Of a stretch of 64,000 nt of DNA, positions 2,622-35,300 are shown piece after piece. Within the stretch, counting starts at the first letter, position 1; each line of letters starts with the position of its first letter. This DNA comes from Fusobacteriales bacterium. GTDB taxonomy: Bacteria > Fusobacteriota > Fusobacteriia > Fusobacteriales > Fusobacteriaceae. The stretch lies in the NCBI GenBank assembly GCA_020063625.1, contig JAICDD010000001.1, positions 124,001 through 188,000 on the forward strand. Reading direction: 5' to 3'. The position numbers and the translations under genes were made by a program. The notes under the pieces were generated by a model. The model saw only the letters and a list, made by a program, of their open reading frames with translations, was not told where the DNA came from and made no database searches.

Positions 2622-2692
2622 AAAAAAACCTAGTTGATACACAACACTTAAAAAAACTCATTTCTAAGTGAAATACACCAACTAGGTTTTTC
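2622..2692 (-). terminator. Riboswitch expression-platform terminator
   Basis: On the minus strand, AAACCTAGTTG (2682-2692 end) pairs with CAACTAGGTTT (2622-2640 end) around a long partly paired loop and is followed by a T run. It lies between the purine aptamer and the permease start, the usual position for ligand-induced termination. Confidence 0.75.
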
Positions 2693-2693
2693 C

Positions 2694-2758
2694 ACTCATA
2701 GTAGGCTATTTACGGTAGCCTGTAGAGACTTCTGACCATATTACAGAATTATATGAGT
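2694..2758 (-). ncRNA. Purine riboswitch aptamer, guanine/hypoxanthine class
   Basis: Reading the minus strand, P1 is ACTCATA (2758-2752) closing with TATGAGT (2700-2694). Between them are the conserved J1/2 ATATGG, the L2-side TCTCTAC, CCGTAAA for L3 and J3/1 ACTATGAG. The specificity base before TATGAG is C (C74 in xpt numbering), which pairs with guanine or hypoxanthine; adenine aptamers carry U. The aptamer sits between the promoter at 2779-2807 and the terminator at 2622-2692. Confidence 0.93.
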
Positions 2759-2778
2759 TACTATTCATTTTATGACAA

Positions 2779-30190: not shown

Positions 30191-32104
30191 CTAATTTTTA
30201 AATACAGGTTTTGACTCAGTTTTTATCATTTCTACAAATTCATTTATATCCATTTCTACTTGTTCTTTTGAACCAAATCTTCTTACATTTACTTTTCTAT
30301 TTTCTACTTCTGATTTTCCTACTATTAATTGTACTGGTATTTTTTGTTTTGCATTTGCTTCTCTTATTTTGTATCCTATTTTTTCAGCTCTATCATCTAT
30401 TTCTACTCTAATTTCCTCATTTTCTAATATTTCTTTTAATTCATTTGCATAAGGTATTACATCATCATTTAATGTAAGTATTTTTACTTGAACTGGTGCA
30501 AGCCAAGTAGGGAATGCTCCTGCATAATGTTCTATAAGTATTCCTAAAAATCTTTCAATACTTCCATACATAGCTCTATGTATCATTATAGGTCTATGTT
30601 TTTCTCCATCTTCACCTATGTATGACATGTCAAATCTTTCAGGAAGATTCATATCTAATTGAATTGTTCCACATTGCCAGATTCTTCCAATAGCATCTTT
30701 TAATTTAAAATCAAGTTTTGGTCCATAAAATGCACCATCTCCAGGATTTAATTTATAATCTTTTCCTGCTTTTGTTACTGCATTAGCAAGGGCTTTTTCT
30801 GAGATATCCCAAATTTCATCACTACCTATTGCTTTTTCTGGTTTTGTAGATAATTCTATATGATATTCTAATCCAAATAGTGAATAAAATTTATCATATA
30901 AAGAGATTACATTTACAACTTCATCTTCAATTTGCTCTTTTGTCATAAATACATGTGCATCATCTTGAGTAAATGCTCTTACCCTAAATAATCCATGAAG
31001 TGCTCCTGAAAATTCATGTCTATGTACATGACCAAACTCTCCCATTCTAAGAGGTAAATCTTTATATGAGTGTAATCCATTTTTATACGCTAATATTCCC
31101 CCTGGACAGTTCATTGGTTTTATTGCAAATTCAAATTTATCTATTTCTGAAGTATACATATTTTCTCTATAGTTAAACCAATGTCCAGAAGTTTCCCAAA
31201 GTTCTTTATTAAGCATCATTGGAGTTTGAATTATTTTATATCCAGCTTTTTTATGTTCTTTTTCCCATATTCTCATTAAAATATTTTTTATTTCCATTCC
31301 TTTTGGTAAGAAAAATGGAAATCCTGGTCCATATTCAGAAATGAAAAATAGTTCTAATTCTTTTCCTAATTTTCTATGATCTCTTTTTTCTGCTTCTTCT
31401 AATAAAGTTAAATAAGCTTTTAAATCTTTATCATCCGCAAAAGCAAATCCATAAATTCTTTGTAGCATTTTGTTATTAGAATCACCTCTCCAATAAGCTC
31501 CTGCTACAGATTTTAATTTAAAAGAACCTAAATATCTAGTAGATGGTACATGCGGTCCTCTACATAAATCAATAAATTCTCCTTGTTTATAAAGTGATAA
31601 TACTTCTCCTTCAGGAATTGCTTTTATTATTTCTACTTTATAAGTTTCTCCCATATTTTCAAAAAATTCTATTGCTTCTTCTCTAGTTTTTTCTTCTCTT
31701 TCTATTTTGATATCTTCTTTTACAATTTTTTTCATTTCAGCTTCAATTTTTTCTAAATCTTCATCTGTAAATTGCTCTTTTGGATCAAAATCATAATAAA
31801 ATCCATTTTCTATAGCTGGACCTATAGTTACTTTTGTTTCTGGAAAAAGTCTAATTACAGCTTGTGCCATTAAATGAGCTGTACTATGTCTAATAATTTC
31901 TAATCCTTCTTCAGTTTCTGGAGTAATTAACTCTACAGTTGCATCTCTATCTAATACATATGTCATATCAACTAATTTTTCATCTACTTTTGCTGCTATC
32001 GCTTTTTTAGCTAAAGAATTACTTATACTTTTAGCTATTTCAAACATATTTACACTATTTTCAAAACTCTTGACATCTCCACTAGGAAGTTTTACGTTTA
32101 TCAT
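30191..32104 (-). CDS. thrS: Threonyl-tRNA synthetase
   Basis: 637 residues, full length. TGS domain (1-60, V-K-L-P-S-G-D), editing domain with R-H-S-T-A-H-L-M-A-Q-A and G-P-A-I-E-N-G-F-Y-Y-D-F, class II core with M-N-C-P-G-G (zinc Cys), R-x-G-E-F-G-x-V-H-R-H-E, D-D-A-H-V-F, and the C-terminal anticodon domain. Charges tRNA-Thr. Preceded by an apparent attenuator with a Thr-containing leader peptide (32166-32344), which fits control by threonyl-tRNA supply. Confidence 0.97.
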   Translation of the reverse strand: MINVKLPSGDVKSFENSVNMFEIAKSISNSLAKKAIAAKVDEKLVDMTYVLDRDATVELITPETEEGLEIIRHSTAHLMAQAVIRLFPETKVTIGPAIENGFYYDFDPKEQFTDEDLEKIEAEMKKIVKEDIKIEREEKTREEAIEFFENMGETYKVEIIKAIPEGEVLSLYKQGEFIDLCRGPHVPSTRYLGSFKLKSVAGAYWRGDSNNKMLQRIYGFAFADDKDLKAYLTLLEEAEKRDHRKLGKELELFFISEYGPGFPFFLPKGMEIKNILMRIWEKEHKKAGYKIIQTPMMLNKELWETSGHWFNYRENMYTSEIDKFEFAIKPMNCPGGILAYKNGLHSYKDLPLRMGEFGHVHRHEFSGALHGLFRVRAFTQDDAHVFMTKEQIEDEVVNVISLYDKFYSLFGLEYHIELSTKPEKAIGSDEIWDISEKALANAVTKAGKDYKLNPGDGAFYGPKLDFKLKDAIGRIWQCGTIQLDMNLPERFDMSYIGEDGEKHRPIMIHRAMYGSIERFLGILIEHYAGAFPTWLAPVQVKILTLNDDVIPYANELKEILENEEIRVEIDDRAEKIGYKIREANAKQKIPVQLIVGKSEVENRKVNVRRFGSKEQVEMDINEFVEMIKTESKPVFKN

Positions 32105-32165: not shown

Positions 32166-32196
32166 AAAAAAATACCCAGGTTTATACCAGGGTATT
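32166..32196 (-). terminator. Attenuator terminator of the thrS leader
   Basis: Minus strand AATACCCTGG - TATAAA - CCTGGGTATT, one T-T mismatch, followed by seven T. It is 62 nt before the thrS ATG and cannot be needed by lptD, whose transcript ends upstream of the leader. Confidence 0.85.
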
Positions 32197-32251
32197 ATTA
32201 ATTAAATCATTAAATAAAATAAATAAGCCCTCATACAAACCTAATCCGCAA
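32179..32251 (-). promoter_or_regulatory. Antiterminator and anti-antiterminator arms of the thrS leader
   Basis: On the minus strand GGTTTGTATGAGGG (32241-32228) can pair without gaps with CCCTGGTATAAACC (32192-32179), 13 of 14 positions counting two G-U pairs, and this destroys the terminator's 5' arm. The overlapping TTGCGGATTAGGTTTGTA (32251-32234) can instead pair with leader codons 7-13 (32313-32293): TACAA/TTGTA, ACCTA/TAGGT and CCGCAA/TTGCGG. The two pairings exclude each other, giving a threonine-sensitive switch. Confidence 0.72.
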
Positions 32252-32268
32252 TTTTTGCAATCTAACAT

Positions 32269-32286
32269 AGAGGGAATTTGCCCTCT
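32269..32286 (-). ncRNA. Internal hairpin of the thrS leader
   Basis: AGAGGG - CAAATT - CCCTCT, starting just after the leader peptide stop; it nests inside the leader:anti-antiterminator pairing. Confidence 0.7.
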
Positions 32287-32287
32287 T

Positions 32288-32332
32288 TTATTTTGCGGTA
32301 TAGGTAATTTGTATATTAATAAACTTATTCAT
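32288..32332 (-). CDS. thrS leader peptide, MNKFINIQITYTAK
   Basis: A 14-codon frame with an ideal ribosome-binding site: GGAGGT (32344-32339), 6 nt, ATG. It contains two Thr codons, ACC-TAT-ACC (codons 10 and 12). These ACC codons form part of the 5' arm that pairs with the anti-antiterminator, so a ribosome halted there would free the antiterminator. The transcript starts only a few bases before the RBS, as in classical attenuation leaders. Peptide function beyond sensing is unlikely. Confidence 0.75.
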   Translation of the reverse strand: MNKFINIQITYTAK

Positions 32333-32355
32333 TTTATTACCTCCAATTTTTATTG

Positions 32356-32384
32356 ATTATACTATTTTAAACTATTTTTGTCAA
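32356..32384 (-). promoter_or_regulatory. thrS promoter
   Basis: Consensus -35 TTGACA (32384-32379), 17-nt spacer, consensus -10 TATAAT (32361-32356). It lies immediately after the lptD stop, so the thrS leader is made independently of lptD. Confidence 0.9.
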
Positions 32385-32386
32385 GT

Positions 32387-35300
32387 TTAAATACCTGCCT
32401 CTAATTTTAATCCATTTTCATTAGAATCTTTACCTAGTCCAATAGATTTATCTGGAAATGTAAACAGATTAAAGCTAAATGAGATAGTATAGTCATATCT
32501 TAAATATGTCTGATTCCAATCTAATTCATATGATGTTTGCCACTGTCCAAATTCTATCTCTTTTCCTAATGTAGCTCTTATTTCATCTAAATTTTCTTCA
32601 CTACTGCTATCCTTTAATTCTGTTTTATATTTTGTAGCAAATTTATATATCCATTTTTTATCAATTTCTCCAATTTTTTTAGTAAACTCTAAATAATGTA
32701 TTTTACTTGTACTTAAACTTTTTACACTATTATAAATACTATTTTCTTCATCATAAGAATATATTAATTTATTTTCATCTCTATGAATCTCTAATCTTAT
32801 TTTAAACAACTCTAATGCATTTATAAAATTTGTTTCTTTTGTGTAATTTTTATCAGATTTTAAAGTAAGTGTAAATTTATTATATTTTTTATAAATAGTA
32901 TCATCAGCAATATTATCAATACCAAAAATATCAGTAGTAATACCTCTTTCTTTTTTTACTTGTTCTAAGAATTTTCTTTGAAGTTCTTCTTCTTCTGATT
33001 TTGTTAACTCTACTTGATATTCACCTGTACTATCTGTATATACTACTTTTTCATCTTCCTCTTTTTTTAGATCATTATATTCATAACTAATTTCATTTTG
33101 ATAATAAGAATAATTATTATCAACTTTATTATTATAATCAATTAATTCATAACTATAATTATTATATTCAATTGATTTATCACCAACTAAATAGTTGATT
33201 TTAAATTGATTTTTTAAAATATTTTCACTATAACTATTTACAGCACTTCCTGTACTATCATTATAATCATAAGTAGTATTTGTAGTTATACTATAATTTA
33301 GTGTCCACCATTTATTATTTTTTTCTCCAAAAGAGTATTCAAAACTATTTGTAATATCTTTATCTATATATTTCAAAAAGTTATATGTTCTAATTCTATC
33401 TGAATAATCAAGAGATGTATCAATACTCTCATCTCTTACTTTATTTTTATAATATGATATATTATATTTAAACTCTCTATTATCATCATAAAGTTCTAAC
33501 TTATATTTTTGATTATCTATATTTTTATAATTATCTTCTTGATATGAATTATTTATATCATAAGATGTATAAATTGTTTTTTTATTATCAATACTAAAAT
33601 CTATACTATTTTTTAATGATAAACTTTTTAACCAATCATTTTTATATGCATCATTATATGTTATTAAATTTATATTATATATTGTATCTGTATTTCCAAA
33701 TGCTATTTTTAATTCATTTGATATATCTTTTTTTAAATTTTTTCCATTTAATCTATAATATTCTGAATCTTTAGCATCTGAAATATATGTTACACTGTCA
33801 TTAAAATCTCTATTTCCACTATTATATACAAAATAATTCATATAATAGCTAAATTTATTATCAATTTTAAGGTCATAGTCTCTATAAAAATCTCCTGTAT
33901 TATCATAAATATTTTTAGTTAAAATCTCTTTAGTACTAAATTCTTGTAAAGTATCTTTTTCAAAATATTTATCATATCTTCTATTAATTAAAAAATCTAA
34001 ATTTCCTAGTTTTGTATTTATTTTACTATCTTGATACTCTATTATGTTATAATTAGAATTATTTATAAATTCATCATATCCAGTATCTTCATATAAATCT
34101 CTATCTTTAATAGTTGATTTATAATCTCCCAATACAAGTTTTAATCTTTTACTATTTTTACTTAATTCTGTCTGATATCCATTTTGTTCTATATTTTTTT
34201 CAATAATATCAATAGTTCTATTATATTGTCTATCTCTTGCATTAGTATAACTACTTCTAAATGGATCTTCATCTAAATTAAGTTTTTCATAATTTTTATC
34301 ATAATTATAACTAAATTTTAAATTAAACTTATCATAGATATTATAGTTCCCAATAGTCGCATTAAAATCTTTTGAAGATTTTTCATCATACTGTGCTGTT
34401 GTATAAGGATTATAAGATGTATTAGTATATTTTTTTAATTCTTCATCATCATTATATCTCTCACTATCAGATAAAGTTCTCCATACATCATAATTTGTAT
34501 TTTTATAATAAAAATCTAATTTATATTTTTTATCTACTACTTTATATTCATCCACATTATTATATGATTTTGTATCACTTTTACTAGAACCTGTATCTAA
34601 ATCTTCAAATCTTTCATAATATCCATAAAGTTTATATCTCAAATTATCTTTATCAAATTTTAATTTTGTTTGTATCTCATTATCTACTTCACTTTTATCA
34701 TCTTTATTTAAAATATTTTCATTATTACTATTTATAATTTCTTTTAAAACATCTGTATTATCTACATATTGTATATATGCATATATTGATGTATCTTTAT
34801 TTTTACCAATTTTATCAAAATTTGTAGATAATTCATATCTAGACATTTTTTGTTCATAATTACTATATGGGTCACTTTCACCTGAATCTTCTGCATTACT
34901 TCTTGCATCTTCTACAGCATTTATTGTATTAATTGTCTGATTTTTATATTTCCAGTTTAATTCTCCATTTTTAGTTTTATATGTATGTTCATGTTCAAAA
35001 TCCCATTGCTCTTCATAATCTCCTCTTGGAAAAACTAGAGTATCATAAAACGAAACTTTTCCTTTATTTTCATCATTTACTTTATATACATTTTCAAAAC
35101 TTTCTATAAAAGTTCCTTTTTTAGTAGATTGCTTTAGTGCTAAACTTCCATTTAAATTTTCATTTTCTATACCATAATCAAATCCCCAAATAATATAAGT
35201 TCCATCATCACTATTTGAACCTATTTTAGGAAAAAGTGGAGCTTGTGTTTCTGATTTTAATGAGCTTGCATACCATGGCATCCAAAATATAGGAATTCTT

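Follow-up and report, generated by a model that had tools for sequence, protein, structure and literature searches.

We estimate at about 0.9 the probability that thrS, the threonyl-tRNA synthetase (ThrRS) gene of the Fusobacteriales bacterium analyzed here, is controlled by a ribosome-mediated transcription attenuator sensing charged tRNA-Thr, a reading drawn from the sequence and from folding models. The putative attenuator lies in a 64,000-nucleotide stretch of DNA, hereafter the window, whose positions are used below. At the scale of the family, we consider it quite likely that leader-peptide attenuators, each specific to one amino acid, form a regulon in one branch of the Fusobacteriaceae, comprising thrS, tyrS, valS, trpS and possibly a methionine transporter gene, alongside T-boxes at another synthetase gene; such a regulon would be the first described in Fusobacteriota, and its attenuators the first at thrS, tyrS and valS.

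The elements follow one another on the minus strand in the order promoter, GGAGGT, leader frame, post-stop hairpin, segment 2, terminator and thrS; the elements themselves, their conservation, their cognate codons and their exclusive pairings were all computed. The regulated gene (30191 to 32104) encodes a 637-amino-acid threonine--tRNA ligase, with a score of 729 bits against NCBIfam TIGR00418 (cut-off 384). The TTGACA-17-TATAAT promoter at 32384-32356, already proposed in the initial annotation, matches the consensus at 12/12 positions, and the sister species differs from it at one spacer base. Promoter-like sites taken together are not above chance in the region (12 vs 11.3 in shuffles); the 12/12 site is unique. 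A Shine-Dalgarno sequence, GGAGGT (32339 to 32344), precedes a leader frame of 14 codons, MNKFINIQITYTAK, which runs from its ATG at 32332 to a TAA ending at 32288 and reads ATG AAT AAG TTT ATT AAT ATA CAA ATT ACC TAT ACC GCA AAA TAA. The frame, its ribosome-binding site and its two ACC codons are thus as first annotated, except that the codon coordinates then given were off by about one nucleotide. The control codons are ACC TAT ACC, and these hold the only two Thr codons of the leader. Both are ACC, a codon that accounts for 1.7% of Thr codons in the long frames of the window. In the genome to which the window belongs, tRNA-Thr(UGU) was the only tRNA-Thr detected, with no tRNA-Thr(GGU) to match the ACC codons of the leader; this genome is incomplete and lacks several other tRNAs as well.

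Directly after the leader stop codon lies a hairpin, AGAGGG-CAAATT-CCCTCT (32269 to 32286, minus strand), which was absent from the initial list of elements. Further downstream, an intrinsic terminator (32166 to 32196, minus strand) combines the hairpin AATACCCTGGTATAAACCTGGGTATT with a T tract, giving the U7 end that had been reported for it. The region contains two terminator-like sites for 0.1 expected, the other being the post-stop hairpin read on the plus strand.

Competition among pairings is the core of the proposed switch. Segment 1 (leader codons 7-13, 32294 to 32314) pairs in the minimum-energy fold with segment 2 (32228 to 32251), and the post-stop hairpin is nested inside this 1:2 duplex. 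The initial proposal that leader codons pair with a downstream segment is borne out by the duplex energy of -27.0 kcal/mol, vs -10.5 +/- 3.0 in shuffles (p = 0.001); the 184-nt leader as a whole folds with -54.4 kcal/mol (z = -6.1), and 0/200 shuffles do as well. Alternatively, segment 2 can pair with segment 3 (32179 to 32192), that is, with the 5' arm and loop of the terminator. This 2:3 pairing, between 32228-32241 and 32179-32192, involves 13/14 positions as first described, two of these being G-U, and 1% of spacer sequences shuffled by dinucleotide give a match as good. When 1:2 and 2:3 are required jointly, 0/1000 shuffles equal the window. By computation, the 2:3 antiterminator and the 3:4 terminator are mutually exclusive.

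Using a partition-function model, we obtained a 2:3 probability of 0.04 without a ribosome, before the 3' arm of the terminator is made, and of 0.93 in the same pre-terminator transcript when a ribosome footprint masks either ACC codon. The initial view that stalling would free the antiterminator agrees with these values. In the full-length equilibrium fold, the terminator is favored in every ribosome state (0.86-0.96), so that the switch must be kinetic. The companion proposal, that completed translation brings about termination, calls for a refinement: segment 2 begins 37 nt past the leader stop codon, and in a simple footprint model a ribosome parked at this codon leaves segment 2 uncovered and the 2:3 pairing possible, hence termination depends on ribosome release. 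In terms of this model, what termination needs is release of the ribosome, or no initiation at all, rather than completed translation as such.

From these elements we infer that the leader is translated, that the ribosome stalls and that transcription terminates, as well as how strongly and in which sense thrS responds. RNA polymerase would start at the promoter and a ribosome would begin the leader frame. When threonyl-tRNA is plentiful, the ribosome would pass the two rare ACC codons and leave; segment 1 would then pair with segment 2, leaving segment 3 free to form the 3:4 terminator, and thrS would be off. When threonyl-tRNA is short, the ribosome would wait on ACC-10 or ACC-12 and cover segment 1, segment 2 would pair with segment 3, the emerging terminator arm would be occupied, and transcription would continue into thrS. 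Threonine shortage should thus increase transcription of thrS.

We searched for ThrRS in 61 family genomes, that of the window included, and in 24 genomes from other families of the order. Upstream regions of thrS were read in 57 of the 61 family genomes. A leader frame is present in 15 of these 57, distributed over six genera, in line with the expectation that relatives would carry the leader ORF, and a terminator follows the frame in all 15 loci. The remaining 42 genomes have no thrS leader, including those of the sister genus g6. A genome of this genus also carries a second, more distant ThrRS fragment (G006:C104:3-860, 59% identity). The leader reads MNKFINIQITYTAK in both species of the window's genus (g1), MNSYMIKSTTTTSTTS in g4, MLYGVFFDTTTTLTNK in g14, MLGYFSSTTKTTI in g9, MRLLTTTTDTFI in g12 and, in part, MFKITTTTTNTF... 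in g2. In all five genera other than that of the window, the leaders hold Thr runs, stronger than the window's own.

Comparison with the sister species L002 shows no difference in the Shine-Dalgarno sequence, the 42 leader coding bases, segment 2 or the terminator arm; the differences, indels among them, lie in the hairpin loop, in the spacers and just past the terminator. The stem of the post-stop hairpin is kept with an altered loop length, and a hairpin is found at the same place in relatives; the terminator is likewise kept, with deletions in the DNA just downstream. At larger distances, the pairing architecture recurs across the six genera although the sequences differ almost completely: in each, a hairpin or other structured stretch after the stop codon can be drawn, together with a 1:2 pairing of the Thr-codon segment and a rival 2:3 pairing. 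Since a single MAFFT alignment across genera misaligns the leader frames, we relied on shuffle tests run per lineage. With one representative per genus, the joint 1:2 and 2:3 test gave p values of 0/1000, 0.002, 0.008, 0.041, 0.039 and 0/1000, which Fisher's method combines into about 1e-8 (0/1000 counted as 0.001). Pairing of the control-codon segment with segment 2 is clear in the window, L011 and L016, and weaker in L012, L013, L020 and L026; the joint p value of L012 is 0.14. For g9, g12 and g2, folding to minimum energy gives the 2:3 pairing even when no ribosome is present. On the ThrRS tree, the distribution of the thrS leader needs three changes, two of which are forced by well-supported branches, and the leader was therefore lost or gained more than once.

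Leaders of the same kind are found at other synthetase genes, and their codons follow the gene: Tyr-rich before tyrS, Val-rich before valS, Trp-containing before trpS, as they are Thr-rich before thrS. Tyr-run leaders are present at 9 of 10 tyrS loci read from g1, g4, g6, g9, g12 and g14; at the tenth (L229) there is a terminator, and the leader position falls at the edge of the stretch read. The tyrS leaders with terminators (L213-L217, L224-L228, L230-L233) span six genera including the window's (L216/L224), where the leader reads MHRNYYYSYYYNKINKK, other genera having YYYY to YYYYYY. No Tyr leader was seen in 20 tyrS loci read from another family, f4. Val leaders precede valS in g1, g12 and g14. 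In the window's genome (G000, contig C1; L163 / L254), the leader is MIKFLAVVKVVKNNILFSK, with a terminator and an ATG about 198 nt before valS; it uses GTC twice, a codon that represents 0.9% of Val codons. The sister species (L164) has the same leader, and the sequences in g12 and g14 differ from it. Those tyrS and valS leaders that were put to the joint 1:2 and 2:3 test gave p values from 0 to 0.013. Trp leaders occur before trpS in some genomes only (L219, L220 and L223, with WIHWWC, TWWW and NWIH), and the scan found a terminator in L219 and L223.

The ileS, leuS, metG, serS, proS, hisS and pheS loci showed no cognate leader, and a scan for three identical residues followed by a terminator returned none at Lys/Asn/Asp-type synthetase and homoserine dehydrogenase loci. 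Elsewhere (L302:1-795, minus strand), a frame, MRNFEFRQLNMMMMLWKGL, contains four consecutive Met codons and is followed by a strong terminator and then by a metN-like ABC transporter ATPase gene; judging from its codons, this frame is a possible methionine leader peptide.

Another account of the thrS locus would make the terminator the plain 3' terminator of the upstream, outer-membrane-protein-like gene; thrS would then be transcribed constitutively, and the small frame would be incidental. That gene indeed ends at 32387, directly before the promoter; many relatives have thrS immediately after the upstream gene, with no leader. However, the promoter precedes the terminator, and no minus-strand promoter-like site is listed between the terminator and thrS. 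Furthermore, every base of the leader frame is conserved as its surroundings diverge, and leaders with cognate codons recur at the same place in six genera, as well as at tyrS, valS and trpS, which makes this account very improbable. The codon match also bears on two readings in which a regulatory leader is accepted with another sensor. ThrRS could bind its own leader RNA, much as the E. coli enzyme represses its own synthesis through its mRNA (mentioned in PMC2965389), so that the ribosome would not be the sensor; this would leave unexplained both the Thr runs and the matching Tyr, Val and Trp codons found before the genes of other synthetases, and we regard it as slightly less probable still. 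Alternatively, the leader could report translation stress in general, in the manner of erm-type leaders, rather than threonine, for stalling on segment 1 would free segment 2 whatever its cause. In a general sensor, a match between control codons and the downstream gene would be superfluous, yet such a match is observed at thrS, tyrS, valS and trpS, and this reading is more improbable again.

The least probable of the rivals, to which we give almost no weight, is a divergent T-box riboswitch reading uncharged tRNA-Thr directly. It would have precedent, in that thrS of Firmicutes is among the classic genes under T-box control (PMC2494555); in a 2008 survey, no T-box was reported from the two Fusobacteria/Thermotogae genomes included (PMC2494555). 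T-boxes do seem to exist elsewhere in the Fusobacteriaceae: matches below the Rfam cut-off were obtained at G001:C1:27680-27857 and at places in G004, G014 and G031, several of them immediately preceding a Lys/Asn/Asp-type synthetase gene (PF00152). Against a T-box at thrS, RF00230 has no match over the leader, either at the Rfam gathering threshold or at E values up to 10, nor at the thrS loci, nor anywhere in the window's genome, and a translated frame with runs of cognate codons is foreign to T-boxes. The Rfam Thr_leader model (RF00506) was equally silent at gathering and at E up to 10. The initial annotation was right in seeing no T-box over this span. Sub-threshold Rfam matches to small RNAs in the leader region were taken as chance. 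Elsewhere in the window, a purine riboswitch aptamer was detected at 2679-2776 (minus strand, 72.7 bits). Ribosome-mediated attenuation thus stands as our preferred reading for thrS. Judging from the matches above, T-boxes and leader peptides seem to occur side by side in some of these genomes.

The mechanism proposed here is the one by which the enterobacterial thr, his and pheST attenuators work. In the enterobacterial thr operon leader (thrL, RF00506), a short leader with Thr codons, mutually exclusive hairpins and an intrinsic terminator respond to threonine. The fusobacterial leader has the same layout and would have the same signal; however, thrL controls thrABC biosynthesis and not thrS, its sequence is unrelated and from a different phylum, and its Rfam model finds no match here. 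The E. coli pheM-pheST system is an instance of leader peptide attenuation at an aminoacyl-tRNA synthetase gene, and differs from the thrS leader in its Phe codons and in belonging to the Gammaproteobacteria. More generally, leader peptides have been described in Proteobacteria, in Actinobacteria and at a few genes of Firmicutes, where synthetase genes are usually controlled at the RNA level by T-boxes. The Firmicutes thrS T-box (RF00230) shares with the fusobacterial leader its gene, and would share its signal (threonyl-tRNA charging) and its output (terminator readthrough), but there the tRNA binds the RNA directly and no leader peptide is involved.

Other cases concern other amino acids and other phyla. 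For the uORFC-8-2 motif of cysS in Rhodobacterales, ribosome-mediated attenuation at cognate codons has been proposed (PMC8632094); this case differs from the thrS leader in being Cys-specific and alphaproteobacterial. The survey that described it included a Fusobacteria genome, and its main text does not mention thrS (PMC8632094). Outside the Proteobacteria, as the thrS leader is, lie two further cases of leader peptides carrying cognate codons ahead of genes for synthetases or synthetase-like proteins: those of hisS*/hisZ in bacilli (PMC2965389) and the trpS/leuS attenuators of Streptomyces (PMC1262725). In the open-access literature we found no attenuator of the leader-peptide type described, whether in Fusobacteriota, including Ilyobacter, or at thrS, tyrS or valS, in keeping with the initial impression that control of thrS by a leader peptide would be new in such a bacterium. 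Ribosome-mediated attenuation itself is known; what is new, as far as this literature shows, is the phylum and the genes.

These observations have several implications for the Fusobacteriaceae. A single clade appears to equip several synthetase genes with leader switches matched to their amino acid, and some of the same genomes appear to have T-boxes before another synthetase gene; as far as we found in the literature, neither system had been described for these synthetase genes in Fusobacteriota. Such switches can be found by their runs of cognate codons, though their RNA sequences share almost nothing between genera. As leader peptides and T-boxes seem to coexist in some of these genomes, the interchange of the two sensing systems becomes directly testable.
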